Shown here: positions 13,274-42,485 of the stretch, piece by piece | How the letters are laid out: each line of letters begins with the position of its first letter | Numbering within the stretch: position 1 is the stretch's first letter | Origin: Anaerococcus vaginalis ATCC 51170 | Lineage (GTDB): Bacteria > Bacillota > Clostridia > Tissierellales > Peptoniphilaceae | Direction: 5' to 3' | DNA length: 64,000 nt | NCBI RefSeq assembly: GCF_000163295.1 | Contig: NZ_GG700527.1 | Location: 451,453 to 515,452, forward strand | The notes under the pieces: generated by a model | Told to the model about the DNA's origin: nothing | Databases searched by the model: none | The model's input: only the letters and a program-made list of their open reading frames with translations | Position numbers and translations under genes: made by a program

Positions 13274-13281
13274 GAATAAAA

Positions 13282-13297
13282 GTTAGCTATTGCTAAC
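13282..13297. promoter_or_regulatory. Operator-like dyad at the transcription start of the metallophore operon
   Basis: GTTAGCTATTGCTAAC, perfect 6-bp arms with a 4-base centre. The GTTAGC/GCTAAC halves resemble the core of DtxR/IdeR boxes. It covers the expected start point about 8 bases after the -10 box. Confidence 0.6.
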
Positions 13298-13322
13298 AAA
13301 AAATATATTAAAAGGTGAATTT

Positions 13323-14081
13323 ATGTCAAAAAATTTTGAAATGCTAAATAAAGAATTAGACGAAAACAATATTAAAGCTAGTCTTGTTATATTTCCGTTT
13401 GCAGGAGGTGGAGTATCTGCATTTAGAAATTGGAAATATGAATTTGAAGATGTAAGGGTATTTGTTGCTCAATATCCAGGAAGAGAAAATAGATTTTCTG
13501 AAAAGGCTACAAGTGATATTAATATTTTAGTTGAAACATTATTCAATGATATGAAAGAAAATTTTGATTTTGGAAAACCTTACTATTTATTTGGACATAG
13601 TATGGGAACAAAAATTGTTTATGAAATAGCCTTAAAGATCAAAAATTCAAGTTATGAAAATCCAAGAGGAATAATAATTTCAGGTGGACGTGCTCCAGTG
13701 TATAAAGAACCAAATCCAATCTATCACCTTGATGACGAAGGTTTTATAGAAGGGCTAAGAAGATATGAGGGAACCCCGAAAGAGATATTAGATAATAAAG
13801 AATTGATTTCAATTTTTTTACCGACACTTAGAGCAGATTTTGTAATAGACGAAGACTATCAAGATACAAAACATGAAAAATTAGAAAGTCCCATACTTGG
13901 CCTTATGGGAGATAAAGATCAAGAAATGAAATTAGAAGAACTTAAAAAATGGCAAGATTATACAACAAAAGAATTTGTCTATAAATATATAGATGGCAAG
14001 CATATGTTTGTAAATACATCTACTGAAATGGTTATAAGGGAAATAAAAAGCTATATTAATGAAAACGTTAAAAATAATTAA
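13323..14081 (+). CDS. Type II thioesterase (YbtT/PchC-like)
   Basis: The 252-aa alpha/beta hydrolase is typical of type II thioesterases that clear mis-primed carrier proteins. FPFAGGGVSAFRNW forms the oxyanion region, the nucleophile is Ser93 in FGHSMGTK, an acid lies in LMGDKDQEM, and the histidine is in DGKHMFV near the end. ATG 13323 is preferred to the upstream in-frame start because AAAGGTGA lies at 13311-13318. It is the first gene of a tightly packed operon running to 36802, and its end overlaps the next gene by 23 bases. Confidence 0.9.
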   Translation: MSKNFEMLNKELDENNIKASLVIFPFAGGGVSAFRNWKYEFEDVRVFVAQYPGRENRFSEKATSDINILVETLFNDMKENFDFGKPYYLFGHSMGTKIVYEIALKIKNSSYENPRGIIISGGRAPVYKEPNPIYHLDDEGFIEGLRRYEGTPKEILDNKELISIFLPTLRADFVIDEDYQDTKHEKLESPILGLMGDKDQEMKLEELKKWQDYTTKEFVYKYIDGKHMFVNTSTEMVIREIKSYINENVKNN

Positions 14082-14733
14082 AATTACAGAATTAACAAAA
14101 TTTGACATTAATGAGGTAGTTCAATTTATACATGATGATTGTATAGCAGTAGTTGCTGTAGAAACAAATAGTTATGGAATTATAAGTGAATGTATTCCAT
14201 ATTTAAGTAAAGATCAAATTGAAATTATGTGGAAGTATAGAAAAGAAAGTGACAGAATTAATTATGTTGTAACAAAAGCAATAGTAAACTTGCTATTTTC
14301 TAAAATTGAGAAACTAAAATTCGAAGAGATTAGATGGCGTTACGGTAAATATAATAAACCATATATTAGAAATCATTTGAATTTACATTTTAATATATCA
14401 CATACCACAGGATTTTCAATAGTAGCTTTCTCAAGAAATGATATAGGAGTTGATATTGAAAATATAGAAAGAAATATAGATTATAGTGAAATTAAGAATA
14501 ATTTTTTTATTAACAATGAAAAAATATTAGGTTTGAAAGACTTTTACAAATATTGGGTTTGCAAAGAAGCTTATTTAAAATATAAAGGAGTCGGTTTAAT
14601 TCAAAATTTGGAAACAGTTGATGTTATTAATAAAAATAATAATGTAATGAAAGTTATAGATAAAGAAAATAATATTCAAAAGGAGATTTTGATTTTTGAA
14701 AAAGAAAAATTTGTTTTTGCGTTATGCTATTAA
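14059..14733 (+). CDS. 4'-phosphopantetheinyl transferase (Sfp-type)
   Basis: The 224-aa protein has the Sfp hallmarks: KPYIRNHLNLHFNISHTTG, the magnesium-binding GVDIENIE near residue 130, and the WVCKEAYLKYKG block near 167-178. It would attach the phosphopantetheine arm to the ArCP and PCP serines of the synthetases downstream. Its presence makes the operon independent of host priming enzymes, useful for a mobile cluster. The start lies inside the thioesterase gene, so translation is probably coupled. Confidence 0.9.
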   Translation: MKTLKIIKITELTKFDINEVVQFIHDDCIAVVAVETNSYGIISECIPYLSKDQIEIMWKYRKESDRINYVVTKAIVNLLFSKIEKLKFEEIRWRYGKYNKPYIRNHLNLHFNISHTTGFSIVAFSRNDIGVDIENIERNIDYSEIKNNFFINNEKILGLKDFYKYWVCKEAYLKYKGVGLIQNLETVDVINKNNNVMKVIDKENNIQKEILIFEKEKFVFALCY

Positions 14734-14751
14734 AAAGGTAGGGCAAATATT

Positions 14752-16341
14752 ATGAATTTAGAGATTAAGAGACAATTAATCAACTTTTATGATAAAGATG
14801 TTTGGGAGCATCTAACTGTTGGCGAACATTTGAAAATGTGGTCAAATACATACGCCGATAGAGTAGCAGTTGTAGATGAAAATGAAGAATTGACATATAG
14901 ACAACTTAAAGATGAAGTGGATTGTTATGCTAATGGACTTTTAAATCAAGGCTTCCGTAAGGGAGATAAAGTATTATTTCAACTTCCTAATAGCAAAGAA
15001 TTCATTATAATTTTATTTGCAATGATGAGTATAGGAGTGATTCCTGTAATTATCTTGATGGGTCATAGATATTCAGAAGTTAAGGGAATTTTAAATAAAA
15101 CAAATGCAAAAGCATATATTGGAATTAACAGGTACTTAGGATTTTCATATGAAGATATGGTGTCTAATATTATAGAAGATACGAAAGAAGATTTACAAGT
15201 TTATTTGATTGGCGAAACAGAGAAATATGAGAAGTTATGTACCTTAAGACAAAATAGAAAAAATAAATTTGTTGAAGAATTAGAGTATAAGGAAACAGCT
15301 ATATTTTTATTGTCAGGAGGTACAACCGGCTTTCCGAAACTAATACCTAATAGGCATTGTGAATTTATATATTTAGCAAAAGAACTGGCAAATGCAACAG
15401 ATATGAATGAAGATACAGTGTATTTGGCAGCTTTACCTATGAGCCATAAATTTGCACTTTGTTGTCCGGGAATGATTGGGACATTGTCAAAAGGTGGTAA
15501 GGTAGTTACTTGTAGAGTATCCAGTCCTGATGAAATAATACCTTTGATTGAGGAACAGGAAGTTAGCATTATGGCATTGGTACCTACTTTAGCTAATATG
15601 TGTATAGAATATCTTGAAAATGATGATGCTGATATCAGCAGTTTGAAGTATATACAGATAGGTGGATCTGTTCTTGATTCTAACTTAGCAAAAAAGATTC
15701 AGGAAGAATTTAATTGTAAATTATTGCAATTGTATGGCATGAGTGAGTCGTTGATTACTTGCTCTAGGGTTTTGGACGATGATTATGACAGATTACATAC
15801 TCAAGGGAAGAAGTTAAGTGAGTTTGACGAAGCTCGTATTGTTGATGAAAACGGGAAAGAGGTTCCTGATGGAGATTTTGGAGAGCTAATAGTTAGGGGA
15901 CCATATACTATTTTGGAATATTATGATTCATCAAAACTAAATAATACTCAGTTTACAGAAGAATGTTTTTTAAGAACAGGAGATAGAGCCGCTAAGTTAT
16001 ATGGAGACAATTATAAAATTGTTGGTCGTGTGTTGGAGATGATAAATCGTGCTGGAGAAAAAATAGTTCCTTCTGAGTTGGAAAATATTTTGCTTACAAA
16101 TAAGAATATTAGAGAAGTGCAAATTGTTGGCATACCCGATGAGACTCTCGGAGAAAAAATAGGTGTATTTATTTTGAAGGGGAGTACCGTTCTTACACTT
16201 AGAGATATAAAGAATTATTTGGTAGAAAGAGGACTTGCTTCTTTTAAGTTACCGGATGAAGTACAGTATGTTGATCAATGGCCATTAACAAGCGTTGGAA
16301 AGGTAGATAAAAGTAAATTAAAACAACAAATGATTAAATAG
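14752..16341 (+). CDS. Aryl acid-AMP ligase (EntE/DhbE/YbtE-like) for the starter unit
   Basis: The 529-aa stand-alone adenylation enzyme has A3 LLSGGTTGFPK (about 186-196), A5 LYGMSES, A7 LRTGD, A8 YKIVGRVLEMINRAGEKI and the A10 lysine in SVGKVDK. The N-terminal GVIPVIILMGHRYSEV matches the EntE group. In the pocket block MSHKFALCCPG, Lys233 stands where DhbE has Asn235 and Cys238 where DhbE has Ser240. Cys at the latter place is reported for salicylate-activating members, but Lys at the former is unusual. It should load the ArCP of the next protein. No isochorismate or salicylate synthase gene occurs in the window, so the aryl acid comes from elsewhere. Confidence 0.88.
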   Translation: MNLEIKRQLINFYDKDVWEHLTVGEHLKMWSNTYADRVAVVDENEELTYRQLKDEVDCYANGLLNQGFRKGDKVLFQLPNSKEFIIILFAMMSIGVIPVIILMGHRYSEVKGILNKTNAKAYIGINRYLGFSYEDMVSNIIEDTKEDLQVYLIGETEKYEKLCTLRQNRKNKFVEELEYKETAIFLLSGGTTGFPKLIPNRHCEFIYLAKELANATDMNEDTVYLAALPMSHKFALCCPGMIGTLSKGGKVVTCRVSSPDEIIPLIEEQEVSIMALVPTLANMCIEYLENDDADISSLKYIQIGGSVLDSNLAKKIQEEFNCKLLQLYGMSESLITCSRVLDDDYDRLHTQGKKLSEFDEARIVDENGKEVPDGDFGELIVRGPYTILEYYDSSKLNNTQFTEECFLRTGDRAAKLYGDNYKIVGRVLEMINRAGEKIVPSELENILLTNKNIREVQIVGIPDETLGEKIGVFILKGSTVLTLRDIKNYLVERGLASFKLPDEVQYVDQWPLTSVGKVDKSKLKQQMIK

Positions 16342-16357
16342 ATAAGGAGGCTACAAT

Positions 16358-19300
16358 ATGGAAACATATCAAACTAGACAACAGGCAGTACGACTTCTTG
16401 ATGAAGTGTTACAAGCAAACTTAGATGGATTTAAACCTTCAGGAAAAGACAATTTGATTGAAAAGGGTTTAGGCTCTATCCAAATCATGCAAATAGTTTC
16501 AGAGCTTAAAAAATTAGGGATAAAATTATCATTTGCAAAACTAATGGAAAATCCTACACTTGAAGATTGGATTAGACTTATTGAAAAAGCAAATATTAAA
16601 AATATTGATAAAAAGACTGAATCAAGAGAAAAGAATATTTCGGAAGAGTTCCCTTTAACGGATGTACAGTATGCTTATTTTGTAGGGAGAGAAGAAGATC
16701 AGGTTCTAGGTGGTATTGGGTGTCACGCATACTTAGAAATTGATGGACAAGAGATTGTAACAGATAAATTAACTGCTGCTTGGAACTGTTTACAAATGGA
16801 AAATCCAATGCTTAGAGCAAAATTTAACCGTAATGGTACTCAGCAAATTATGGAAGAACCATACTCAAAAGAAGTTAAAATTTTTAATTATACTTCACTA
16901 TCTGAAGAAGATGCAGACATAAAATTATTGGAAATGAGAAAAGAAATGTCTCATAGAAAATTTGATATAGAAGTTGGAGAAGTAGCTAGCCTTAGCATTG
17001 CGTTACTAAAGGATAAAAAACATAGAATATTTTTAGATATTGATATTCTAGTTGCAGATATAATGAGCATAGGCATTATAATGAGTAGACTTGTAGAGCT
17101 GTACTGCGGAGAAGATAAAGTTTCAATAGATAGCAATTATACTTTTAAAAATTATCTGGAGGAACGAAAAATAGATGACGAAATATACAAAAAAGATAAG
17201 GAATTCTGGAAGAAAAAAATTGAATCCAGTTTTCCTTTAGAGGCACCTAACTTACCCATTAACAAAAAACCAGAAATGATTGAAAAAGTGGTTTTTTCAA
17301 GAAGAAAGAAAATTATTAGCAAAGAAAACTGGATTAAGATTAAAGAAAATGCATATAAAAATAAAGTTACCCCATCAATGGTTCTGTTATCAGCATATTC
17401 AATGATTATTGAAAGATGGACAAATCAAGAAAAATTTGTGATCAATGTGCCATTATTCAATAGAGATGTAAATGATAATAGTGTTAAAAGAATGGTTGCA
17501 GATTTTACTAATCTTCTATTAGTTGAGTGTGAAAGAAAGAATGAAAAATTTTTAGATAGAGTGAAAACTATATCTGGCACATTTTTAGAAAATGCCTCTC
17601 ACAGCTCATACTCTGGAGTGCAGGTACAAAGAGATGTTTATAAAGAAGTTGGAAAAACTATCAATATTGCACCTGTGGTGTTTGCTTGTAATATAGATTA
17701 TCCTTTAGAGACTCAGGAAACAAGAAAAATATTCGGGAAAATAAACTATATGGTATCACAAACTCCACAAGTTTGGCTCGATTTTCAAACTTATTTAGTA
17801 GATGATGAGATTGTATTATGCTGGGATGTGGTTGATGAATTATATCCAGATGGAATGATTGATGATATGTTCGACTCTTTATACACTTTATTACAATCAT
17901 TAAGTGATAATGAAAATTGGTATAGATTGCCTGAAATTCTTCCGTTGAATCAGATTGAAGATAGAGAAAAAGAATTAAAAAATATTTTGCCTTTGAGTTA
18001 CCCTAAACAAACTCTCTATACAGAATTTCTTGATAGGATTAAAGTAAACCCGGAAAAAGTTGCTATTGTGGATGCACAATCCGGTATTGAATTAACTTAT
18101 GGAGATTTATACAAAAAGGCGTTAATTATTGCAACAAATTTAATTTCTTTTGGAGTAAAAAAGAATGACTACGTGGGAATAACATTGCCAAGGGGATATA
18201 GTCAAATAGTTGGTATTTTAGGAATTTTATTTGCCGGCGCAGCATATGTTCCTATCGGTATTAATCAACCCAACGAAAGAAGAAGGAAAATATATGAACA
18301 GATAGGAATAAAACATGTCTTATCCAATAAAAATACAATAAGGGATTTTAATTTAGATGATACAGATATCACATTTGTTGATATAGATCAATCAACTATT
18401 CAAAGTATAATTGAAAAACCTGTCAATATTAGTCCGTTTGATACAGCCTATGTAATTATGACATCAGGAACGACGGGAATTCCTAAAGGTGTGGAAATTG
18501 CACACAATAGTGCTGTTAATACAATCAATGACTTAAATGAAAGATATGAAGTAAATGCCAATGATAGCGTAATAATGGTATCAGCAATTGATTTTGATTT
18601 ATCAGTTTATGATATTTTTGGAATATTATCGGCTGGAGGAACCATCATTACTTTAGATGATAATAATTTCAAAGATCCGGAACTTTGGTTAAAACTTATT
18701 GAAAAATATGAAGTAACAATGTGGAATTCGGTGCCAATTCTTTTTGATATGCTAGTAACTATGGCAGAGGGTAAAGATGTTTCTATTCCATTGAGATTAG
18801 TTTTTCTTTCTGGAGACTGGATTGCAACAACATTACCTAAAAGATTTTATAACAGAAGCAAAAATTCTCTTGTAGTTGGAATGGGAGGAGGAACAGAGGC
18901 TTCCATTTGGTCAAATTATATCAATGTTCCAAAGGAAATACCTAAAAATTGGATTTCTATTCCATATGGAAAAGCGTTAAAGAACCAAGTCTATAGAGTA
19001 GTTGATGGTTTAGGAAGAATATGTCCTAACTATGTTAAAGGAGAATTGTTAATTGGTGGGGTTGGTGTTGCAAAGGGATATAGGGGAGATAAGGAATTAA
19101 CAGAAAAGAAATTTATAGAATCGGATGGAGTTAAATGGTATAGAACTGGAGATGCTGGAAGAACATGGAATGATGGAACTATTGAATTTTTAGGAAGGCT
19201 TGATAATCAGGTAAAAGTTAAAGGGCATCGAATAGAACTTGGAGAAATTGAAGATGCTTTAATTGGAAATCCTAAAATTAATAAAGCTGTTGTTGATGTT

Positions 19301-22300
19301 ATTAAGATAGGCACTAATAATCAATTGGTCGCATTTATTGAAAGTAATGAGAGTAAGGATTATACATTAACTAGATTAAGTAGTAATGAAAAAATAAATA
19401 AACTGAAATCTGAATACATTGATTATGATGAGTATCTAAATAGTGAAAATAATATGGTTTTAGGTTTGATATTTTCTATTTTCATGGATTTGGGTATTAG
19501 TCAAGGAAAAAGGTATTCTTTTGATGAAATAATGAAATTTGGAGAAATAGATATAGGATACGAATTGCTCGTAAAAAGATGGCTATTATTATTGCAAGAG
19601 CATAGTATGATAAGTTTAGAAGATGGTATTTACTTATTTAAAAAAATAGATATAGCATTAGACACAACAGTCAACCTAGATAATTTCAAAAATAATGTGG
19701 TAGATATTATACAGGGTAAGAAACAAGCTATTGATGTGTTTTATGCTTCTGAATCTAAACCTAGTCCTTCCAGACTTTTGAGAAAACTGAAAAATTATAG
19801 AGAAAATATAAATGAACTTATTGAAACTATAAAGATGGTATTTGATGGCAAAAATAAAAAGCTTAAGATTTTAGAAATAGGTGGAAGAAATAGCGAATTA
19901 ACAGAAGAGGTAATTACAAACTTTGAAGATAAAATCGAAAAATATGTTTATACGGACAATTCACTATATTTTGCAAATGAGTTTGAAGACATAAAAAATA
20001 AATATACTTGTTTCGAGTTTATAAAAATAAATTCTTCAAGTAAGTATTTGGAAAATTTTAAAACGGAAAATTTTGATATTGTCATATTATATAATTCACT
20101 ACATCGTTCTCATAATATTTCAGATATGTTGCGTAATATAAAAACCATATTATCTCCTATGGGCGTTGTGATTGGAACTGAAATAAATGATGAATTATTA
20201 TTACCAGAAATTAGTGCATCTGTATTAGAACGTGGTTTTATTGATTTTGATTTGTTAGAGCGTAATGGAAAAATTATTCCAAATATTAAAAACATTAAAA
20301 ATGCAAGTGAAAATTGTAAATATAAAATTGAGTATTTATCTAATGAGACTGAAATTAACAAAATGGGAAGTATGATATATGTTCTTAAAAATAACAAAAT
20401 AGATGTTGAACAAGATGAATTAATTAAATTTTTAAAGAACAAGCTTCCTGAATACATGATTCCATTTGAATTTGTAATAGTAGGAGAAATGCCTTTAAAT
20501 AAAAATGGTAAAATTGATAGAAAAGAATTAAGGAAATTGATAGAAGGACATGATAATCAAGATTCTGGTTATGATAGCAAAAGTATTGAAGGTAAAAATG
20601 AAACAGAAAAGTATGATGAAATTACAAGGAAATTAGTCAATATTTATAAAGAAATTTTAAATGATATGAATGTATTATCGACTTCTAATTATTTTCAATT
20701 AGGAGGAGATTCTCTTACAGCGACGAAAATTGTTTCCGAAGTACAGAAAGAATTGTGTGTACAAATATCAATTGGAGACATCTTCAAATATCCTGTTTTG
20801 AGAGAACTTTCAGAGTATATTAAAAAAATTGACAAAAAGAGAAATTTATCATTTCAAAAAATTATACCTGATGTTGAAAATATAAATGAGCCATTTCCAT
20901 TAACGGATGTGCAATTTGCATATTGGATAGGAAGAAACAAAATGTATTCTTTAGGTTCAGTAGCAACACATTGTTACTTCGAATTAGATTGTTTGAATAT
21001 TGAGCCTAATAAACTTCAAAAGATAATAAATGATATGATTAAGTATCATTCTATGTTAAGGGCGATAATTTTAAACAATGGAACACAACAGATATTGGAA
21101 AAAGTTCCACCATTTATGTTAGATATTAATAACTTATCATGTCTTAATAAGGTTGAACAAGAGGAAGCTTTAAAATTGACTAGAGATATTATGTCTCACG
21201 AAATATTAAAGATAGATAAATGGCCTATATTTAATTTCAAACTTAGCATTTTAGATGAAATTAAATCCAGACTCCACATTAGTTTAGATAATATTATTTT
21301 AGACGGTTGGAGTATGTTCTATATTCTAGATGAATTGAAATTAAGATATAATGATGAAAATTTTTATAAGGAATTACCAGATGTTTCATTTAGAGATTAT
21401 GTTTTAGAAATTAGAAAAGTAAAAAACACATCTAAATATCAGGTTGATAAAAAATATTGGCTGAATAGATTGAATGGATTTTTGGAAGCCCCTAAATTTG
21501 AAATAGCAAAGTTAGAAAGTGATATAGAAGAACAAACTTTTAATAGAAGAGAAAAAATCATTGATTCTTGTGGATTGAATAAATTAAAAGGAATCGCAAG
21601 AGAAAATAACATAACATTGACAATTTTATTAATAACATTATTTTCTGAAATAATTAGGAAATATTCATTAAATGATGAATTTGTATTAAATATTACACAG
21701 TTTAACAAGGAACAAATTCATCCGGATATAAATAAAATCATAGGAGATTTTACTAACCTAACATTTCTTGAAGTAAAAAATTGTACTAGCGATTCATTGC
21801 TAGAAAAATCCAAAATGTTGCAAAAACAATTATTAGAAGATACAAAACACAATTCATATAGTGCTGTAGAATTTGGAAGAGAATTAAGGAATAAATACTC
21901 TAACAATAGATATTCTTTAATGCCTATAGTATTTACAAGTGGATTAGGTTTGTCTGAAGGCAGGAAAGATACTTGGCTAGGAGAACTTGTATATAATATT
22001 TCTCAAACACCACAAGTTTGGCTTGATCATCAAGTTATGGAAATGGACGGCAAATTAAAAATAATTTGGGATTCCATTGATGAAATATTTACGGCACAGT
22101 TGCTAGATAGGATGTTTGAGTCTTATGGAAACTTATTGGATACTATAATAAATAATACCAATACATTTTCCACTAAAATTAATTATAAGGAAAATAAAGA
22201 TACTGAAAATAATGTATGTATTAGAGAAGACTTATCAGTTTATCAAAATAATGAACCTGATGAAGATATTCATAAATCAAACAAGAAAACAGAAGATAAA

Positions 22301-22531: not shown

Positions 22532-22553
22532 TGTATTTGGAGAGAGGAACATT

Positions 22554-25072: not shown

Positions 25073-25096
25073 TAAATCAACTATGGAGGGAATAAT

Positions 25097-27543: not shown

Positions 27544-27544
27544 A

Positions 27545-28594
27545 ATGAAAAAAAGATTGAAAGCCATAGTTTGTGGCACGAATTTTGGGGAATTTTATTT
27601 AAAAGCATTAAAGAGAGCCGAATCAGATTTTCAAATTGTTGGTATTATCGGAAGAGGCAGTGAAAGGTCAAAGACACTTTCAAAGAAATATAATGTACCA
27701 CTGTATTTTAATGTTGAAGAATTGCCATCAGATATAGATTTAGCTTGCGTTATTGTTAGAAGTGAGGGAACAGGTGGGGATGGAACAGAATTGTGCATAG
27801 ATTTACTAAATAAAGGAATAAACGTAATTCAAGAGCAACCTGTTTATCAAGAACATTTATATAAATGTTATAAGCTAGCAAGAGAGAAAAACCTTATTTA
27901 TTTGACTGCAAATCTATATTCAAATTTATCAAATATGCAGAGCTTTGCAGTGTATGCAAAAAAATTAAATATATATTCTAAGTTAGAATATATAAGCGTT
28001 TCTTTTTCTACACAATTATCATATGTAGCTTTGGATTTATTAGCTATTTCTGGTATTTTAGGTGATTTAGAGTTGGATAATAATATAATAAAGGGATTAG
28101 GCCCATTTGATATATTATATGGAAATATAGGGAAATTGCCTATTTTAATAGAATTCAATAATCAATTAAATCCCAAAACACCTGATTATAATATGCAATT
28201 AATGTATAGTTTTAAACTTTATTATGAAGATGGAGTATTATCGCTAAATGATGCTTATGGAGATGTTGCTTGGCGTCCAAGAACATATTTAAAAGGAGCT
28301 AAAGACGATTTAAATATAGGTAAAGAGTCAATCTACAAGGTTTTGAATTCTTTAAAAGAAACGAGTACTTCAAAATTTTTTCAAACATACTGGATTGATT
28401 CAATAACAGCAGAATTGATTAAAATGAAGAAATATATGAATTCAGGCAAACTTGATATTCGTCGAGTAAACAGGGAACTATCAACATCTAAAAAATGGGA
28501 AATTTTGCAGAAAAAAGCGGGATATGCAAAGTTTATGGAGACTAGTAAAGAGAAGCTGCTTTTGCTGAGTGATATAAAAATTTTTGATGAATAA
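27545..28594 (+). CDS. Thiazolinyl imide reductase, paralog 2 (altered motif)
   Basis: 349 aa. ATG 27545 is chosen because AAGGAG lies at about 27530-27535; an earlier in-frame start would overlap the preceding gene more. The cofactor motif is VCGTNFGEFY. The block equivalent to EHP-H reads NVIQEQPVYQEHL, so both histidines are replaced (Gln, Tyr). Fold and length are normal, and GGDGTELCIDLLNKG is kept. It may act on a different ring, or have a changed proton donor. Its presence suggests two separate reductions in the product. Confidence 0.85.
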   Translation: MKKRLKAIVCGTNFGEFYLKALKRAESDFQIVGIIGRGSERSKTLSKKYNVPLYFNVEELPSDIDLACVIVRSEGTGGDGTELCIDLLNKGINVIQEQPVYQEHLYKCYKLAREKNLIYLTANLYSNLSNMQSFAVYAKKLNIYSKLEYISVSFSTQLSYVALDLLAISGILGDLELDNNIIKGLGPFDILYGNIGKLPILIEFNNQLNPKTPDYNMQLMYSFKLYYEDGVLSLNDAYGDVAWRPRTYLKGAKDDLNIGKESIYKVLNSLKETSTSKFFQTYWIDSITAELIKMKKYMNSGKLDIRRVNRELSTSKKWEILQKKAGYAKFMETSKEKLLLLSDIKIFDE

Positions 28595-28613
28595 TTTAAT
28601 AAGGAGGTAAATA

Positions 28614-31600
28614 ATGGAGAACGGTTATAAAGAAATAATTGAAAAATATTCTAAGCAAGGTATTGAGTTGTATGTTGATGGTGAAAAGTTAAAATATAAA
28701 TCCATAAATGGTCAGTTAGATGAAGATATTTTAATGGAATTAAAATTAAATAAAGAGGGACTTAAAGAATACATTAAAAAACTTGAGAATAAATATGATG
28801 TTAAAGATGATTACGCACCATTTCCATTATCTCCAGTTCAGACATCATATCTTTATGGAAGAGATGACTTACATTCATATGGAAATGTATCTTGTCACAT
28901 TTATCAAGAATTTTTATATGATAATTTAGACGTTTCAAAAGTACAAGATACATGGAATTACTTGATAAATAAACATGAAATGCTGAGGGCAGTTATATTT
29001 AAAGAAGGATATCAAAAAATACTACAAAAAGTTCCAGAATATGAGGTTGTTACTGGAGATAGGATATCTATTAGAGAACAGTTAGAGGATAAAGTTTATC
29101 AATTAGAAAAATGGCCAATGTTTGATATTGGAGTATCAAATTATGGAGAAAAATCAATTTTACACTTTTCGATGGATTTTATGATATGTGATTGGTCAAG
29201 TATATGGCAACTTTTATTAGAGTTTGAGATGAAGTATTTTAAAGGAATAGAGAATGATAGACAATCTAAGATATCATTTAGGAATTATATAATAAGTGAA
29301 GAAAAGACAAAAGAAAACTCGGAATACAAGAAGGCGAAAGCATATTGGAGTCAAAAGACTAGAAAATTAAAGACATCTCCAGTAATACCTTTAAAAACGC
29401 TAAAAGAAACGGACGTTTGCAAGTTTAAAAGATTGTCTTTCACATTAGATAAGGATATGTGGGATAAATTTAAAATTTTAGCTCAAAACCATGCTTTAAC
29501 ACCGACAGCATCAGTATTGACTGTATATAGTGAAGTACTAAAAAAATGGAGTACAGAAAAAGAATTTCTTATAAATTTAACTTTATTTAACAAGAAAAAT
29601 TTAGGGGAAAATATAGAATATTTAGTAGGCGATTTTACAAATACATCGGTAATTTCGATAAAAAACATAAAAGAATCTTTTTCAGAGTTAGCAAGAGAAG
29701 TTAATAAAGAATTATTCAGCTCAATAGATAATAGTGCATATCCTGGAGTTAATATATTAAGAGATATTGCTAAACTGCATAACTCCAAAGAATTTTTAGC
29801 ACCATATGTATTTACAAGTGCAATAGGTTTAATTAAAAAGAGGTTGATAGGAAGATATGTGTATGGAATATCTCAAACACCGCAAGTATTTATTGATTGT
29901 CAAGCTATGGATACTGAATTAGGTTTACAGATTAATTGGGATGTTCGTGAAGGAATATTTGAAGATGATATGTTGGAGGATATGTTTAGTGAGTTTAAAA
30001 AGATTTTAATAAATTTATCGAACAATAAAGAATTTTGGGAGAAACGTCTTGAAATTGATCTACCTAAGTGGCAACGTGAAATTAGAGAAAAAGTTAATGC
30101 TACAAATAAAAAAATTAATAATAAGACATTATTAGAAGATTTTATAGAAAAAGTAAAATCTTATCCAGATAAGGCGGCTGTTATAGACTCTAGAGGTTCA
30201 ATTTCTTATAAAGAATTATATAATAAGTCTGTATCTATAGCTTTAGCATTGAAAGAAAAAAATGTAAAAAAAGGTGAGCATATAATTGTAAAACTACCAC
30301 ATAATAAAAGTCAAGTTTATACTATTCTTGGAATACTTATGGTAGGAGCTATATATGTTCCAGTAGATTTTAATATAGAAGAAAAAAGATTAGAGAATAT
30401 TTTAAAACAATGTAATTGTAAAGTTATTTTGACAAATGGCAGTTGTTATTATAGCAGACAAAGAAATTTTGTGAACATTGATGATGTAAATTATAGGTTG
30501 GATTTGATAAATATGTTTAATATAGAACATGTTGATTCGAATGATGCAGCTTATATCATGTTTACGTCAGAGACTACTGAAAATCCAAAAGGTGCTGTAA
30601 TAAATCATGGCGCAGTATTTAATACTATATATGATATAAATCAAAAATTCGAAATATCTGAGAGAGATTGCTTATTAAGAATATCAAAATTAGATTTCGA
30701 CTTATCTGTTTATGATATTTTTGGAATGTTATCAGTTGGAGGAACTATTGTATATCCTGATGAAAGTGAGTATTTAAATCCTGCTCATTGGGATAAATTG
30801 ATTGAAGAAAATTCTGTGTCTATATTAAATATGGTACCAGAATTAATGAAACTATATTTAAATTATTTAGAAAATTTATCAAAAAAACAAAATTTTATTA
30901 AACTAATATTGCTGTCAAGAGATTGGATTCCTTTAAATATGCCTAATGCGGTGCAAAAAACTTTTGTAGAATCTAAAATAATAGTATTGGGAGGTGCTAC
31001 AGAAGCCTCTATATGGTCTAACTATCATGAATATAAAGGTATTAAAAAGGGATGGAAAAGCATTCCGTATGGGAAACCGCTCACTAATCAACAAATTTAT
31101 GTATTAGATAAAAATTTTGAAGATTGTCCAGTTTATTGCGAAGGTAATTTATATATAGCTGGTAGAGGCTTGGCGGAAGGGTATTTAGGAGATAAAAAGT
31201 TAACAGAAGAAAAGTTCTTTATTCATCCTCTAAAGCAGGTCAGACTTTATTCTACTGGAGATTTGGGTCGCTATTTATCAAGTGGAGAAATAGAATTTTT
31301 AGGTACGGAAGATACTCAGGTAAAAATAAGAGGCAATAGAATAGAACTTGGAGAGATAAAAAACACCTTAATGAAACAGGAAGGAATTGATGATTTAATT
31401 GTTAGAGTCAACTATAATAAGGAGGATAAACCGATTGAAGTTATTGCCAAAATAGGGGTTGATATTAGTGAGGTTGACGAACAATACGATAAATATTTTG
31501 ATGGGTTTGAGGCAATAGAAGAAAATATTCAGAGAAATATAGACTATGATTGTTATCAATATATTTGCAAACAAAGGGATATAGTTTGCCTTAATTCGAT

Positions 31601-33977
31601 GTTAAATACTTTGATAGATTTAGGGGTATTAAAAAATATTGGTTTAAATTTATATAATTATGAAAAAAATTCAACTGATATAGATTTAAAATATCATAAA
31701 ATTATAAATAAGTGGATAACTCAGCTTAAAATAAATAATGTTATTTATTCAAAGGGAGAATCAATTGTAATTCCTAAAATAATAAAGAAAGAATTATTAG
31801 ATAAGTTATGGAATAATTGTATTTTAATGTGGGATAATGCATTCGGAGATATTAATATAATGTATTATATTAAGGAAAATATAGATAATTTAAAAAACAT
31901 TTTAACAAACAAGATTGATCCAAGAGGAATTCTTTATCCTAATGGCTCAAAGAAATATACAGAATCTCTTTATGAAAAAAGTATATTTTCAGCCTTGATT
32001 AATGACTATTATTGCCAGTTTTTAGAAAATTATTTAAAGTACAATAAAAAGAAAAAGATAAGAGTTTTAGAAATTGGTGCAGGTACTGGTGCAACAACAA
32101 AAAAACTATTAAAAATACTTGATGGTCATGACTATGAATATCATTTTACAGATTTGCAAAAATATTTTTTACCACAGGCTAAAGAGAATTTTAAAAATAA
32201 TAAGAATATATTAGTTTACCAACTAGATATAAATGAAGATCCAATTAAAAATGGCCTACAACCAAATTATTTTGATATTATTATAGGAGCATATGTATTG
32301 GAAAATGTTAAAGATATTGCTAAAAGCATGTCTTACATTAAGACATTGATGGCACCTAAAGGATATTTGTTATTCTCAGAAGCTATAAAAAACGAACCTT
32401 GGCTATTGGTATCGCAAGCATTAATGATGGAAGAAGCAACTGATAGCATAAGAGAAGAAACTGTATTTATAGACACAAAAACATGGGAAAATATATTGCT
32501 TAAGGTTGATGATAGCAATAAAGTTTATAAATTTCCATATGAGAATAAATCGTTAGGGATTTTTGGGGCAACTCTTTTTATTAAAAAGTTTAAAACGAAG
32601 TTTATGGAAATAGATAGGGAAAAAATAAACGAGAGTATTAAGGGATATTTGCCAAATTATATGATTCCATCTAAAGTTTACTATGTAGAATCTATAATGT
32701 TGAATAGTAATGGCAAAATTGATCAGGAAAAGAATTTTGATATAATTAATGCTGAGAATAATGAAGAAAAAGTTTATACAGCTAACAATGAAGCGACATC
32801 TGAAACTGAAGAAAAAATTCTTAAAATTTGCAAAAATTTGTTGGAAACTGAAGATTTAACACTGGAATCAAATTTTTATGACTTTGGTGCAGATTCACTT
32901 ATTATTGCAAAAATAGCAACCGAAGTGAAAAATAAGCTAAATAAGGAAATTTCTTTTGAAGAATTATTGAGAGAAATAATTAATTTTCCTTTTGTATCTG
33001 AAATTTCTGCGTTTCTGGAAAAAAGTGATGACAAGGACGTAGAAAAAGATTATAGTGATGAAGAAATGGTATATACAAAAATTTTTAAAGGTTCAAACAA
33101 TTTGGAGACCTCAAGGTTAAGGGTACTTGTACACGGCGCTTTTGGAAGTTGGGAAAATTTCAAGTATTTAGCTACAGAATTATGCCAACAAAATGCAGGA
33201 GATGTTTTGATATTGGGAGTTTCAAATATAAAAAAATATTTAGAACTTGATAAGAAAAACCTGGTGCCTATGTTAGCGGATATGTATTGTAAAAAGATAG
33301 TTGGATTTGATGTCAAAGAAGTGCAGCTAATAGGATATAGTTTTAGTGGAGTCGTAGCAATAGAAATGGCAAGAAGACTTTTAGAAATGGGAATCAATGT
33401 TGTTAATTTATCTATAATTGAAGGCGGAACAATTCCAGAGAATAGTTTTGATGAATTACCACTTGAATTAATATTCATATATGCGTTTGGTATAAACTTA
33501 GAAGATTTAGGAATTAGACAAATTGATATATTTGATGATATTTATACTTCAATTGATACTAATAAAAACATACTAACGATATCAAATATTTTAGATCATT
33601 TAAATAATGAAGAAGATAAAAATCTTATTATAGAATTAAACAATATGATACAGAGTGATAGATTTATTAAGTATCATAGTCTTATTAATAAAAAGCAGAA
33701 ACAGGCGTTATCTATGTACTCTTTGTTTGAACTATATAAAATATTTAGACATTCAGTAGAAGCTCAAAAATATAATCCCGATCTTTTCTTTGGGGATCTT
33801 GATTATTATATTGCTAAAGATAACAAAGGAGCATATAAATATATTGAGCATTTAGTTGATAAATGGAAAGATTCAATTATAGGCGATATAAACAAATTCT
33901 ATATTGATGGAAATCACTACAGTTGTGTACAAAATAAAAATAATGCTAAACAATTGGCGATGTTAATAAAAAAATAA
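28614..33977 (+). CDS. NRPS, PchF-like: TubC dock-Cy-A-MT-PCP-TE
   Basis: 1787 aa, about the length of pyochelin PchF, with AAGGAGG before the ATG. A TubC-type docking domain covers about 1-58. Cy (about 65-490) has D-F-M-I-C-D-W-S-S near 185. The A domain has cysteine-type pocket residues (FDLSVYD, LNMVP, LLS, TEASIW), but core motifs are damaged: A3 reads TSETTENPKG instead of TSGTTGxPKG, LSRDW replaces LSGDW, and GTEDTQ replaces GRxDxQ. The MT domain has an intact SAM loop (LEIGAGTGAT near 1150). PCP has FGADSL near 1427. TE has nucleophile GYSFSG near 1577 and His in GNHYSC near the end. It should add and N-methylate the last ring and release the product. The A domain may be weak or inactive. 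Confidence 0.9.
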   Translation: MENGYKEIIEKYSKQGIELYVDGEKLKYKSINGQLDEDILMELKLNKEGLKEYIKKLENKYDVKDDYAPFPLSPVQTSYLYGRDDLHSYGNVSCHIYQEFLYDNLDVSKVQDTWNYLINKHEMLRAVIFKEGYQKILQKVPEYEVVTGDRISIREQLEDKVYQLEKWPMFDIGVSNYGEKSILHFSMDFMICDWSSIWQLLLEFEMKYFKGIENDRQSKISFRNYIISEEKTKENSEYKKAKAYWSQKTRKLKTSPVIPLKTLKETDVCKFKRLSFTLDKDMWDKFKILAQNHALTPTASVLTVYSEVLKKWSTEKEFLINLTLFNKKNLGENIEYLVGDFTNTSVISIKNIKESFSELAREVNKELFSSIDNSAYPGVNILRDIAKLHNSKEFLAPYVFTSAIGLIKKRLIGRYVYGISQTPQVFIDCQAMDTELGLQINWDVREGIFEDDMLEDMFSEFKKILINLSNNKEFWEKRLEIDLPKWQREIREKVNATNKKINNKTLLEDFIEKVKSYPDKAAVIDSRGSISYKELYNKSVSIALALKEKNVKKGEHIIVKLPHNKSQVYTILGILMVGAIYVPVDFNIEEKRLENILKQCNCKVILTNGSCYYSRQRNFVNIDDVNYRLDLINMFNIEHVDSNDAAYIMFTSETTENPKGAVINHGAVFNTIYDINQKFEISERDCLLRISKLDFDLSVYDIFGMLSVGGTIVYPDESEYLNPAHWDKLIEENSVSILNMVPELMKLYLNYLENLSKKQNFIKLILLSRDWIPLNMPNAVQKTFVESKIIVLGGATEASIWSNYHEYKGIKKGWKSIPYGKPLTNQQIYVLDKNFEDCPVYCEGNLYIAGRGLAEGYLGDKKLTEEKFFIHPLKQVRLYSTGDLGRYLSSGEIEFLGTEDTQVKIRGNRIELGEIKNTLMKQEGIDDLIVRVNYNKEDKPIEVIAKIGVDISEVDEQYDKYFDGFEAIEENIQRNIDYDCYQYICKQRDIVCLNSMLNTLIDLGVLKNIGLNLYNYEKNSTDIDLKYHKIINKWITQLKINNVIYSKGESIVIPKIIKKELLDKLWNNCILMWDNAFGDINIMYYIKENIDNLKNILTNKIDPRGILYPNGSKKYTESLYEKSIFSALINDYYCQFLENYLKYNKKKKIRVLEIGAGTGATTKKLLKILDGHDYEYHFTDLQKYFLPQAKENFKNNKNILVYQLDINEDPIKNGLQPNYFDIIIGAYVLENVKDIAKSMSYIKTLMAPKGYLLFSEAIKNEPWLLVSQALMMEEATDSIREETVFIDTKTWENILLKVDDSNKVYKFPYENKSLGIFGATLFIKKFKTKFMEIDREKINESIKGYLPNYMIPSKVYYVESIMLNSNGKIDQEKNFDIINAENNEEKVYTANNEATSETEEKILKICKNLLETEDLTLESNFYDFGADSLIIAKIATEVKNKLNKEISFEELLREIINFPFVSEISAFLEKSDDKDVEKDYSDEEMVYTKIFKGSNNLETSRLRVLVHGAFGSWENFKYLATELCQQNAGDVLILGVSNIKKYLELDKKNLVPMLADMYCKKIVGFDVKEVQLIGYSFSGVVAIEMARRLLEMGINVVNLSIIEGGTIPENSFDELPLELIFIYAFGINLEDLGIRQIDIFDDIYTSIDTNKNILTISNILDHLNNEEDKNLIIELNNMIQSDRFIKYHSLINKKQKQALSMYSLFELYKIFRHSVEAQKYNPDLFFGDLDYYIAKDNKGAYKYIEHLVDKWKDSIIGDINKFYIDGNHYSCVQNKNNAKQLAMLIKK

Positions 33978-33996
33978 ACGTCTAAAGGAGATGTAA

Positions 33997-36108
33997 ATGA
34001 AGGTGTCAAATGTTTTGATATGTGGTAATCCAGAAAATTTACATTATTTGCAAGCAAAAACTAAATTATGTATATTAGATTCTGAAGATGAGTTAGCTGA
34101 GAAAAATGCTTATTTTAAAAATCTAAAACTATACAAATTTGTTTCGCAGTTACCATCAGATATTAAATGGGCGTATATTCCTCAAAAATCCTTGATAGCT
34201 TCTAACAATCCCTATTTAAGAATGGAATTGTTAGAAGCCGGAATTTCTATAGTTGATCAGATGCCATTGGATGTAGATCAAATAAAAGATTGTGTAAAAA
34301 TTGCAAATAATAAAAAAGTTTATTATATTCCAGAAATACCAAGTGAAAATGATATTTTTTTTAAACAGTGTACAAATACGATATATGAAGAATTTAGTAA
34401 GAACAATATTTTATATATTGATGGGTTATTTTCAAAGTTTTTGATATATTATATTTTTAAAATACTGAAAGAAGGATTGAAGACAAATCAAAAAGTAAAT
34501 ATAACAAATAATCATGGTAATTCAATGATAAAATCATTTTCAGGATATATTGCAAGTGTTCCGTTTTGCATAAGAATATATAGACCTAATCTTAATGAAG
34601 AATATCAATTTACTGCGTACAATGATGAGTTAAAAATTTTCACAAAAAATTGTTGCATAACAATTAACTTTATTCAGAAAAATATATTATATGGTTATAA
34701 TATAATAAAAAAAACAGCAGGAAATATTAGCGGTTTTAATCAAACATTGAAGAACAATTATAAGTTGAATTTAAGTACAGTTATTGAGGAGGGCATAGAT
34801 ATAAATGAAATTAATTATCGCTCTCATATTCAAGAAGCATTAAACGATTTATCTTTTATTCAAGATATAAATAAAGTATTATCATGTGATAAAATGACAG
34901 GAATAGGAGAATATAAAAGAAAAAATAATTGGTTTCAAACTTTGAAACAAGGAGATGGATTTAATTATAATAATTCAGTTACAATAAATATGAGTAAAGA
35001 AATTGCTAATATAGAGAGGAATTATTCATATATCTCGAAAGAATATTTATTAAAGTATAAAGAAACGTTGGATACTTATATATTAGGAGAAATATTTAAA
35101 TTTTTTAAAGACAACGGTGCTTTTAACGATCAAAATATAAAATATTCTGAGGAAAAGATCATTAAAAACTGCTTCCATAGCAAAAATAGTAAGATAGTAA
35201 AGAGATGGTTAAAAATGCTTGTTTTGCATGGATTTATAGAAAATAATGAAGGAAGTTTTTATTTGACTAAGAATTTACAAATCAATACAGAACAACTTTT
35301 TTGTGAGTTGCGTGAATTATGGGATTGGAAATTAGGTGATCCCTCTTCGATAGATTATATCAGAGAAAATATAAAAAATTTGAAAGAGTTGTTTTATGGG
35401 GAAATTGATTGTAATGCTATATTATTCCCGGAAGCTGATATAAAATATGCTACAGCTCTGTATAAAAATAATTTAATATACAGATTTTTAAACGAAATAA
35501 TCGGAATTCAGGTCGCTGATTATGTAAACCGACATTTTGAAAGCAAGCTTAGGAAAATAACCATACTTGAGGTTGGCGCTGGTATAGGTGCGTCAACAGA
35601 TAGTATAATTACAAAATTAAATGAATATAGTTTGATACAAAAAATAAATTATTTATATACTGATATTTCGAAGTTCTTTTTAGATATTGGAAAAGAGAAG
35701 TTTAAAAATAATTCAGCAATTAAGTATTTAAGGCTTAATATTGATAATTTAGAAGAGATAGAATCTTTAGATAAGGTAGATATTATTGTTGCAGCAGGGG
35801 TTTTAAATAATTCTAGTAATCTTGAGAAAGTAATGAAGGCATTTTTAAAAAAGATAAGACCAGATGGAGTAATGTTGATTACAGAACCAATAGGTAATCC
35901 AATTGAGATGCTAGTATCACAAGTATTTATGATGGAAGAACCTGATGATATACGAAAGATTAAAAATAGCACTTTTTTAGAATTAAATGATTGGATAGAA
36001 CTTATTAATCGATGTGGGGATTTTGATATTAGTATTTTCCCTAGAGAAAATTTCAAATTGAATATATTTGGGCAAAAGTTATTAATAATTAAAGATAAAG
36101 TGAGGTGA
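33997..36108 (+). CDS. Degenerate imide reductase-like domain fused to a SAM methyltransferase
   Basis: 703 aa. Residues 1-340 follow the layout of the two imide reductases (LPSDIKWAYIPQKSL, LLEAGISIVDQMPLDVDQI, CVKIANNKKVYYIP). The cofactor motif has decayed to ICGNPENLHY and the catalytic block to DQMPLD, so it is probably not a working reductase. Residues about 345-703 are a methyltransferase closely like the MT insert of the PchF-like protein (ENIKNLKELFYGEIDCNAIL, MVSQ-like LVSQVFMMEEP) with a good SAM loop LEVGAGIGASTD near 523. This looks like an MT domain freed from an A domain and joined to a dead reductase that may act as a docking or substrate-binding part. I know no described protein with this order. 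Confidence 0.75.
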   Translation: MKVSNVLICGNPENLHYLQAKTKLCILDSEDELAEKNAYFKNLKLYKFVSQLPSDIKWAYIPQKSLIASNNPYLRMELLEAGISIVDQMPLDVDQIKDCVKIANNKKVYYIPEIPSENDIFFKQCTNTIYEEFSKNNILYIDGLFSKFLIYYIFKILKEGLKTNQKVNITNNHGNSMIKSFSGYIASVPFCIRIYRPNLNEEYQFTAYNDELKIFTKNCCITINFIQKNILYGYNIIKKTAGNISGFNQTLKNNYKLNLSTVIEEGIDINEINYRSHIQEALNDLSFIQDINKVLSCDKMTGIGEYKRKNNWFQTLKQGDGFNYNNSVTINMSKEIANIERNYSYISKEYLLKYKETLDTYILGEIFKFFKDNGAFNDQNIKYSEEKIIKNCFHSKNSKIVKRWLKMLVLHGFIENNEGSFYLTKNLQINTEQLFCELRELWDWKLGDPSSIDYIRENIKNLKELFYGEIDCNAILFPEADIKYATALYKNNLIYRFLNEIIGIQVADYVNRHFESKLRKITILEVGAGIGASTDSIITKLNEYSLIQKINYLYTDISKFFLDIGKEKFKNNSAIKYLRLNIDNLEEIESLDKVDIIVAAGVLNNSSNLEKVMKAFLKKIRPDGVMLITEPIGNPIEMLVSQVFMMEEPDDIRKIKNSTFLELNDWIELINRCGDFDISIFPRENFKLNIFGQKLLIIKDKVR

Positions 36109-36112
36109 AAAT

Positions 36113-36802
36113 ATGGTAACACAAAAATATAATATTGTTTTTATATGTGGAGCATCACATGCTGAATGGTGTTGGGATGAAAATTTTACTAAATATTTTA
36201 TAAAGAAAGGCTATAGTGTTAATATCCACGTTCTGTCTAAAAATGCGAGAAATGTTAGGAACTCTGTTTTAATGTTAGAAGAAATTATAAGAAAGATAAA
36301 AAGAGAAAGTAATAGTAAATTAGCGATAGTTTCTCATTCAATGGGCAATTTAATCTTAAATGAATATTTACAAGATGATAAAAATATTAATAATGTAAAT
36401 GCAATAGTATTACTTTCACCTTATCCAATTAGTAATAGGTTATTGAATGCTATAAAAATTTCTTTTAATTATTACGGAAAAACGAAGGAAGAACTTTTCT
36501 TTTCTGGAAGAGTAGATAAAGCTGAAGAATATGTAGCTAAAATGAAAGAAGAAGCTAAAAATATAAGATTGTTGACATTAACATATTCTTCTATTAAATT
36601 TTTTTGCAAATTTGTACCAACTTTTATAATTGGCTCAAAAAATGATAGATGCATACCTGTAAAGTCTCTGATTGATAGTATGAATTATTATGGTGCAACT
36701 TTGAAGATTTATAATGAATTATGTCATGATTGTATGCTTGATCCACATTGGGAAAAAGTTGCCGAAGACATACATTTATTCTTACAAAATAATCGTTCAT
36801 GA
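36113..36802 (+). CDS. Alpha/beta hydrolase, last gene of the metallophore operon
   Basis: The 229-aa protein has an oxyanion-type FICGASHAEWCW, nucleophile Ser in VSHSMGN near residue 78, acid in IGSKNDRC and histidine in ELCHDC. It lies four bases after the methyltransferase gene. Roles could be ester hydrolysis of the metal-bound product, release or editing. It differs from the type II thioesterase at the operon start. 36803-36849 shows no clear terminator. Confidence 0.75.
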   Translation: MVTQKYNIVFICGASHAEWCWDENFTKYFIKKGYSVNIHVLSKNARNVRNSVLMLEEIIRKIKRESNSKLAIVSHSMGNLILNEYLQDDKNINNVNAIVLLSPYPISNRLLNAIKISFNYYGKTKEELFFSGRVDKAEEYVAKMKEEAKNIRLLTLTYSSIKFFCKFVPTFIIGSKNDRCIPVKSLIDSMNYYGATLKIYNELCHDCMLDPHWEKVAEDIHLFLQNNRS

Positions 36803-36849
36803 ATATGGATGTTGTAAATTCATAAAAATCATGTCTCTTCTAAATTCTC

Positions 36850-36878
36850 TTGACTTAAAATGGAATATATAGTAAAAT
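36850..36878 (+). promoter_or_regulatory. Promoter of the TetR-family regulator
   Basis: TTGACT at 36850-36855 and TAAAAT at 36873-36878 with a 17-base spacer, directly followed by the operator at 36882. Confidence 0.6.
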
Positions 36879-36881
36879 TTT

Positions 36882-36898
36882 AGATAACAAAGTTATCT
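36882..36898. promoter_or_regulatory. TetR-type operator, site 1
   Basis: AGATAACAAAGTTATCT, perfect 7-bp arms with a 3-base centre, placed over the expected start point of the regulator gene. A close copy lies before the ABC genes at 37566-37582. Confidence 0.7.
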
Positions 36899-36921
36899 GC
36901 ATATAGGAAGAGGTGAATAAC

Positions 36922-37545: not shown

Positions 37546-37565
37546 GGGTTAGTTTTTTGCATAAA

Positions 37566-37582
37566 TGATAACTAAGTTAGCT
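37566..37582. promoter_or_regulatory. TetR-type operator, site 2, before the ABC/ECF operon
   Basis: TGATAACTAAGTTAGCT differs from site 1 at only three positions. It lies 32 bases before the first ABC start, between TTGCAT (37557) and TAATAA (37582), which could be a weak promoter. Confidence 0.6.
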
Positions 37583-37613
37583 AATAATGTTATTTTATTT
37601 GGAGGTGTTGATT

Positions 37614-41086: not shown

Positions 41087-41167
41087 GTGAAAATGATTTA
41101 TATGAGAATTATTCAAATATAGCTCATGTAGATTTATATTATTTTAATTTAAGGAGGATTAAAAAAA

Positions 41168-42483: not shown

Positions 42484-42485
42484 CA

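Follow-up and report, generated by a model that had tools for sequence, protein, structure and literature searches.

What does an assembly line with four cyclization (Cy) domains and no polyketide synthase (PKS) make, and how did it come to lie in an anaerobic coccus? The question is raised by an operon in Anaerococcus vaginalis ATCC 51170, within a stretch of 64,000 nucleotides (contig NZ_GG700527.1, positions 451,453 to 515,452) that was analysed whole and is called the window here. The operon runs on the plus strand from an ATG at 13323 to 36802 and encodes 12 proteins, its large reading frames uninterrupted. A preliminary description had taken it for a PKS-free metallophore line with a new product. 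We find a real, intact-looking, equibactin-like cluster that has one Cy module beyond equibactin and bears clear marks of natural recutting. With moderate confidence, we favor a thiazoline metallophore pathway akin to that of equibactin, free of PKS and lengthened to four modules, which is under DtxR control and moves horizontally. If this is true, a tetra-ring aryl thiazoline acid would, to our knowledge, be a new metal ligand. The host is an anaerobe related to human skin and gut commensals, carrying metal-scavenger genes on a mobile element.

The assembly line and its relatives

Operon proteins were scanned with Pfam/NCBIfam profiles and custom-built domain hidden Markov models (HMMs). The first gene, whose ATG at 13323 agrees with the start proposed earlier, encodes a type II thioesterase with GHSMG intact (13323..14081; PF00975, 142.6 bits). 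It is followed on the same strand by a 4'-phosphopantetheinyl transferase (PPTase; 14059..14733; PF01648) and a stand-alone aryl-acid AMP ligase (14752..16341), DhbE/PchD-like by alignment to those two proteins, which reaches 453 bits against TIGR02275, below the cut-off of 723.55. The HMWP2-like synthetase (16358..22531) contains an aryl carrier protein (ArCP, 16382-16594), Cy1 (16640-17983), a cysteine-type adenylation (A) domain (18008-19387), a methyltransferase (MT)-like epimerase (E) region (19385-20527), a peptidyl carrier protein (PCP1, 20618-20833), Cy2 (20885-22213) and PCP2 (22310-22519). Next come a thiazolinyl imine reductase of the YbtU/Irp3 type (22554..23618; TIGR01761, 232 bits), a stand-alone TubC docking domain with Cy3 (23615..25072; PF18563, PF00668), and a protein joining an MT-like domain, recognized by our own HMM only, to PCP3 (25097..26473; PF00550). 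An NAD(P)-binding Rossmann protein (26470..27543; PF01370, 22.0 bits, cut-off 20.9) precedes a second thiazolinyl imine reductase (27527..28594; TIGR01761, 206 bits; YbtU match 4gmf, 108.7 bits); both reductases exceed the TIGR01761 cut-off of 188.8. The PchF-like synthetase (28614..33977) comprises TubC (28623-28778), Cy4 (28812-30107), A (30123-31463), MT (31467-32741), PCP4 (32802-33029) and a thioesterase (TE, 33054-33974). The operon closes with a fusion protein (33997..36108) of a degenerate reductase-like part (~33997-34761) and an MT (~34945-36105), and an alpha/beta hydrolase, EqbN-like by place and family (36113..36802). Motif and HMM searches thus bear out the architecture described before, with four PCPs after the ArCP. 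The PKS-free claim also holds for the operon: no ketosynthase or other PKS domain was found among its proteins (the genome outside the operon was not searched).

The reductase domain PF21390 occurs in 14 of 130 genomes of the family and, in an even sample of the phylum, in 2 of 398, the window's own genome included. Near-identical clusters are found in Anaerococcus degeneri (G009, in the same genus as the window organism), Anaerococcus sp. Marseille-P3625, A. porci, Aedoeadaptatus coli, Peptoniphilus harei (G111) and Peptostreptococcus sp. MV1. More distant clusters lie in Finegoldia magna DSM 20470 (two) and A. senegalensis (one), and a two-Cy relative (G023) sits on an Anaerococcus prevotii plasmid. 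Four Cy domains are present in 9 of the 16 clusters examined, a count in which MV1 is cut by a contig end and shows three, and G111 is included despite broken genes. Our literature searches returned no description of this cluster in anaerobic cocci, and for four-Cy or tetrathiazoline metallophores a single cyanobacterial review. A new structure, as proposed before, is possible, but the kind of cluster has been described already, as equibactin, and the four-Cy line is not peculiar to the window.

Apparently working and broken domains

All four Cy domains keep DxxxxDxxS (DILVADIMS, DNIILDGWS, DCSILDAWS in Cy3, and DFMICDWSS) as well as QTPQV[WYF][LI]D. The carrier serines are intact in five of five cases, in the ArCP as GLGSIQ and in the PCPs as GG(D/N)SL or GADSL, and so are the thioesterase serines of the type II TE and the last module. 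A dyad has been described for Cy domains (PMC9547227). At the dyad position Cy2, Cy3 and Cy4 have threonine and Cy1 has alanine. We considered a Cy1 killed by this replacement and ruled it out, as PchE Cy1 (7emy) has alanine at the same place and PchE is functional; Cy1 of the window also carries the VFA signature, as PchE does.

The two A domains differ. The one in the HMWP2-like protein combines a cysteine pocket with TSGTTGIPKG, and TSG(T/S)TG is found in all 13 HMWP2-type A domains with a complete region. The last module also has a Cys-type pocket, with the A3 loop altered to TSETTENPKG (ASETTENPKG in A. degeneri) in all six window-type clusters; MV1 was left out of this alignment. In five relatives (G053a, G053b, G025, G014 and G023) no A domain was found in the last module, and that of G013 has a stretch without domain assignment where one would sit. 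Judging from its broken ATP loop, the second A domain is probably dead. The altered loop in six of six clusters and the five relatives lacking this domain suggest that the single A domain of the HMWP2-like protein probably charges all four PCPs, as proposed for equibactin and yersiniabactin (PMC3672683).

A motif check did not find S-adenosylmethionine (SAM) motif I in the MT-like part of the MT-PCP protein, and this MT is probably dead; the SAM motif is present in the MTs of the last module and the fusion. Homology of the fusion's N-terminal part to the reductases is supported by hhalign (99.6%), but this part scores only 37 bits against the reductase HMM, compared with 667-680 for the two reductases, and has lost the N-terminal CGxxFGxxY stretch. 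Since the reductase half of like fusions is well preserved in G014, G023 and G445 (213-261 bits), the window's fusion looks like a worn descendant of a better-kept form. At locus L077 of G445, which belongs to a different family, the fusion takes another form: a 1216-aa protein combines a reductase domain with two MT domains and is accompanied by a 2970-aa synthetase of two Cy-A-MT-PCP modules. Loss of reductase 2 through a change of EHP to EQP was also considered and rejected: EQP occurs in four of seven single-reductase clusters (G013, G014, G023, G445), with EHP retained in the other three (G025, G035, G044). Of the domains previously counted as working, the last A domain and the MT of the MT-PCP protein look dead. 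The YbtU type of the reductases, the Rossmann protein, the reductase/MT fusion, the changed A3 loop, the missing SAM motif and the surrounding mobile element were absent from the preliminary description.

Proposed pathway and starter unit

In the pathway that we propose, the stand-alone ligase would adenylate an external aryl acid and transfer it to the ArCP. One working A domain would charge all four PCPs with cysteine, the pair in its own protein as well as PCP3 and PCP4 elsewhere, and each of Cy1 to Cy4 would condense and cyclize one cysteine. We infer the order across proteins from gene order and from the TubC docking domains with which the Cy3 protein and the last synthetase begin. Two or more rings would be reduced to thiazolidines by the two YbtU-type reductases, perhaps with the Rossmann protein, and one or two N-methylations would be made by the last-module MT and possibly the separate fusion. 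The last TE would then release an aryl tetrakis(thiazoline/thiazolidine) carboxylic acid by hydrolysis, to be exported and re-imported through the downstream transporters. Four rings is our best prediction. With salicylate as starter, formula counting gives [M+H]+ from 479.0334 to 513.1117, depending on reductions and methyl groups: 479.0334 would correspond to four thiazolines, 483.0647 to a product with two of its rings reduced, and 497.0804 to the latter carrying one methyl group.

Salicylate, isochorismate and anthranilate synthases belong to PF00425. This family has no match in the whole genome (97.95% complete), although all 14 control genomes have one. We can discount a wholly missing shikimate pathway, as a chorismate synthase is present; only the PF00425 enzymes are absent. 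The lack of such an enzyme for salicylate or dihydroxybenzoate (DHB) precursors, a feature not remarked on before, indicates that the aryl acid is probably supplied from outside the cell. Equibactin production in defined medium likewise required salicylate feeding (PMC3672683), and a 2026 genome-mining paper cites it as dependent on an outside precursor (PMC12971057). This likely reliance poses a testable question of cross-feeding or host supply.

The acid itself may not be salicylate. Read from alignments at the positions of Table 1 in PMC3672683, the ligase code of the window is K F C A Q G L I, compared with N F C A Q G V I for PchD and N F C G Q G I I for EqbD, and N stands first in all nine aryl ligases of that table. 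The window's ligase thus departs from the salicylate type by K in place of N235. This lysine is found in all six window-type ligases, whereas the other five aligned have N, and it may point to a different starter.

Known systems

The closest described system is equibactin, encoded by eqbA-N on ICESe2 of Streptococcus equi (Heather et al. 2008, PMC3672683). As described there, EqbE and EqbG have three Cy domains and one A domain with no PKS, the locus is borne on an integrative and conjugative element (ICE) and influences iron uptake, and eqbE, eqbG and eqbM are required for activity in E. coli. By that account the two systems share an upstream DtxR-like regulator, type II TE, PPTase, aryl-AMP ligase and HMWP2-like synthetase with one Cys A domain; PKS-free Cy/MT/PCP/TE parts, thiazoline reductase, Rossmann oxidoreductase and alpha/beta hydrolase; and a three-gene importer, two fused ABC transporters, ICE carriage and the lack of a salicylate synthase. 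Equibactin has three Cy domains and one reductase, whereas the window has four and two, adding the reductase-MT fusion and a further, probably dead, A domain. The last TE keeps its serine in the window, unlike EqbG with its Ser to Ala change (PMC3672683). The cluster is thus not equibactin proper, although a DtxR-like repressor gene with a palindrome is common to both. By size and place, the window's Rossmann protein would be EqbM/PchK-like; PchK is named a saccharopine dehydrogenase in a Pf-5 gene table (PMC3377617), the same Pfam family as given for EqbM (PMC3672683). Among PDB proteins the Rossmann protein matched just one, a de novo protein (E 0.06).

Yersiniabactin (HMWP2/HMWP1, YbtU) shares the HMWP2 domain order, the YbtU-type reductase and the YbtPQ-like pair and, per PMC3672683, a Cy-MT-PCP block and probably the use of a single A domain to load every PCP. 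Identity to HMWP2 is 30.5-30.7% among the matches listed, and annotated HMWP2 aligns over 98% of the length of the window synthetase at 30.5-30.6%. The ArCP-Cy-A(E)-PCP-Cy-PCP synthetase, DxxxxDxxS in every Cy and a thiazolinyl imine reductase place the cluster with the equibactin/yersiniabactin type. It is not yersiniabactin proper, with no PKS module among operon proteins and no salicylate synthase in the whole genome; it has one more Cy module, and its Cy and MT-PCP parts are divided between two proteins. The pyochelin line consists of two Cy modules with one A domain apiece, and PchF has the order Cy-A-MT-PCP-TE. The window's last synthetase has this PchF order (compared with PchE/PchF/PchG/PchK of pyochelin and enantio-pyochelin). 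The line as a whole differs, with four Cy domains, one intact Cys A domain and a last A domain that is probably dead.

Quoted gene numbers suggest that NRPS cluster 1 of Clostridium kluyveri (Seedorf 2008, via PMC3672683 and PMC6814731) probably shares the gene order of the window: ligase CKL_1504, synthetase 1505, reductases 1506/1510, Rossmann protein 1509 and last synthetase 1511. Compared by gene numbers only, the unquoted 1507 and 1508 fall at the places of Cy3 and the MT-PCP protein. A literature search for these numbers returned just PMC3672683 and an unrelated maize paper. A related island is reported in C. difficile clade 3 (PMC6814731).

Regulation, transport and the metal

Upstream of the operon lies a gene for a DtxR-family metal-dependent repressor (12801..13166, plus strand; PF01325, 45.2 bits; PF02742, 41.8 bits), EqbA-like by place and family, which agrees with the regulator named earlier. 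It has no ATG start, and the ORF caller begins at TTG 12852. By eye, N takes the place of the DtxR Met in this protein and SEACLIEH supplies a C, the same residue pair given for EqbA (PMC3672683). Between this gene and the first biosynthetic gene are a promoter-like TTGATA-17-TATAAT (13245-13273, plus strand) and a perfect inverted repeat, GTTAGC-TATT-GCTAAC (13282-13297, plus strand). Promoter-like sites number 11 in the window compared with 10.5 in shuffles, which makes the promoter weak evidence. The palindrome, with one mismatch allowed, has one match in the window against 0.04 expected, and 4 of 100 shuffles had one; it is likely a repressor site. Across ten upstream regions, five of the six window-type clusters have perfect arms and the sixth, G031, has none; G014, G023 and G025 show arms with a single mismatch, and G053a lacks them as well. 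In G031 (locus L064) the promoter-like and palindrome region is missing upstream of the thioesterase gene, while the coding DNA beyond is 99% identical to the window; that operon may be silent or under different control. A metallophore role, as suggested before, is supported at the level of sequence by the DtxR-family gene, the perfect palindrome and the parallel with equibactin.

Downstream, on the same strand, follow a TetR-family regulator (36913..37545; PF00440), two ABC half-transporters (37587..41086), an ECF-type importer (41168..43949) with S component (PF09605), T component (PF02361) and double ATPase (PF00005 twice), and a MATE exporter (43992..45356; PF01554). Within the best 60 PDB matches, the best half-size ones to the half-transporters are the two chains of 6p6i/8vsi, one of them named YbtQ (273.5 and 271.8 bits), and the mycobactin importer IrtA is next for the first gene, hence YbtPQ/IrtAB-like; full-length eukaryotic pumps score higher since they match twice. 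The ECF-type importer is probably the counterpart of EqbHIJ. In S. equi, deletion of eqbHIJ halted most product-dependent iron accumulation and prevented the iron-toxicity phenotype (PMC3672683), and by analogy this importer would be the likelier uptake route.

Several findings weigh against the pathway as drawn. Every likeness to Eqb proteins given here is to their description in PMC3672683 and not to S. equi sequences. At N235 the aryl ligase breaks with the salicylate/DHB code. In S. equi the iron phenotype was not prevented by deleting eqbKL, which correspond to the YbtPQ-like pair (PMC3672683); the window's pair, offered earlier as support for metal binding, is borne out in its likeness by the PDB matches but is weak support for uptake. 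Equibactin itself was not seen by LC-MS, gave no chelation in the chrome azurol S (CAS) assay and may differ in structure from the proposal (PMC3672683). The authors of that study allow low iron affinity, another metal or signaling. The product of the window might, in the same way, chiefly bind zinc or copper, act as a signal or inhibit competitors rather than carry iron, and a TetR gene and MATE exporter are present besides the DtxR gene. We consider this improbable, given a repressor with the Cys of iron-responsive members (by the criterion of PMC3672683), the palindrome, the ECF and YbtPQ/IrtAB-like transporters in the locus, and 55Fe accumulation that was significantly higher in an eqbA deletion strain of S. 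equi than in the eqbA-eqbE double deletion (PMC3672683). Iron is thus the metal that we infer.

The number of rings meets a similar difficulty, as Cy3 and PCP3 lie on separate proteins that could be skipped or reused. A product with three rings would result if one Cy/PCP pair, most likely this split one, were passed over or Cy3 served as a helper. Equibactin has three Cy domains (PMC3672683), three-Cy sister clusters exist (G013, G014, G025, G044), and the MT next to PCP3 is degenerate. Yet Cy3 and PCP3 retain all motifs and show 97-100% identity across the other five clusters of the window type, and a three-ring product appears unlikely to us; for the two clusters of Finegoldia magna, identity is 45-48% in Cy3 and 31-32% in the MT-PCP protein.

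Decay among carriers is a further difficulty for the four-module metallophore pathway. In P. harei (G111; loci L066 and L067) stops or frameshifts interrupt the two large synthetase genes as well as the reductase-MT gene, leaving a cluster that is probably dead, and the loss of the palindrome region in G031 has been mentioned. Together with the apparently dead A and MT domains, these broken copies might suggest a decaying or silent passenger of a mobile element. For the window this is very hard to credit: the essential motifs tested are intact and the large frames run through. The A3 loop change runs through all six clusters of the window type, and relatives that lack this A domain have preserved everything else, so the loss looks like a tolerated one.

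Carriage on a mobile element and exchange of the last module

Near-identical DNA in distant hosts, a relaxase and serine recombinases, set against diverged chorismate synthases, identify the operon as cargo of a horizontally mobile element. The relaxase (PF03432) and a small protein called MobC-like by size and place only are encoded at 10471..12251 on the minus strand. Three serine recombinase genes lie near the right end (46687..51653, plus strand), the first with PF00239, PF07508 and PF13408 and the other two assigned by similarity to it, and homology between elements stops on that side at 52726-53106. The window and A. degeneri share 97.0% DNA identity across 10526-52742. Over the front half of the operon, to 31388, DNA identity is 96.4% in G001, 97.0% in G022, 98.5% in G111, 99.3% in G031 and, counted from 20649, 98.6% in MV1, so that near-identity of 96-99% spans Anaerococcus, Aedoeadaptatus, Peptoniphilus and Peptostreptococcus. 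Host chorismate synthases, in contrast, are at the protein level 75% identical to that of A. vaginalis ATCC 51170 in G022, of the same genus, 41% in G111 and less in G001 and G044, where the match is in pieces; this control gave no match in G009 and G031. The relaxase stretch (10526-12285) has just 81-82% identity in G031, G111 and G022, and the next 0.95 kb 89% in G031.

The match ends at the same position, 31388, in five carriers (G001, G022, G031, G111 and MV1). It marks the start of an interval exchanged in related elements (31388..43702, plus strand), which reaches from immediately behind core A8 in the last A domain to a point within the ECF ATPase gene. In steps of 50 bases, computed for G001, G031 and MV1 with A. 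degeneri as undisturbed control, ungapped identity drops at the joint from 98-100% to 64-66% and then to 56% and below. The last synthetase of G001 is 98.3% identical over 925 residues and 46.0% thereafter, and the joint lies about 10 residues past core A8 (QVKIRGNRIELGEI, starting at residue 902). Homology returns at 94.6-97.7%, from 43702 in G001 and G031 and from 43974 in G111; in G022 it is back at 82.6% from 43702, and the MV1 sequence ends earlier. Inside the interval, MT-PCP-TE, the fusion protein, the hydrolase, the regulator and the transporters of the carriers are diverged versions. G001, G022 and G031 retain the final 82-83 codons of an ECF ATPase gene of the window type at 80-88% identity, next to a full-length diverged copy. 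This remnant suggests a scar, the window form having been the one replaced. A third mosaic, G044, matches the window at 12609-22090, 37600-41088 and 46086-52750 (94.8-97.3%), with a different last module between.

We tentatively propose, at somewhat less than even confidence, that this element of anaerobic cocci is a natural platform for combinatorial biosynthesis. Recombination just after A8 would replace the half of the last module that methylates and releases the product, and along with it the tailoring fusion, the hydrolase, the regulator and the two transport systems, changing chemical type and uptake in one step on a four-ring scaffold begun with an external aryl acid, maybe not salicylate. 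The sharp joint in five carriers and the coupled exchange of transporters offer a natural example of assembly-line recutting that is useful for engineering. The coupling also raises the question of whether new siderophores remain private to their makers, and the part-exchanged close copies in other genera show a way in which natural exchange of genes can diversify such molecules.

Neighboring sequences

A genome of the same species (G036, 92% complete) has no PF21390 match, yet contains the MATE region at 98% and several stretches like a second relaxase region of the window. We sought a clean empty site there and did not obtain one, the ends being unreadable from these matches. That second relaxase/MobC-like pair (61700-63389, minus strand) is a sign of neighboring or nested mobile elements. 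To the left, window 969-10526 holds about 9.5 kb where G009, G031, G001 and G111 have about 1.5 kb between conserved parts, and contains genes for a two-component system, a radical SAM protein and an ABC transporter. A pemK RNA (RF02913, 59.4 bits) lies at 46293-46357 on the plus strand, upstream of the first serine recombinase gene. The 20 kb left of the window (L096) contain genes of the topoisomerase, NlpC/P60 and CD1107-like kinds, which suggests that the cargo sits within a larger conjugative element.

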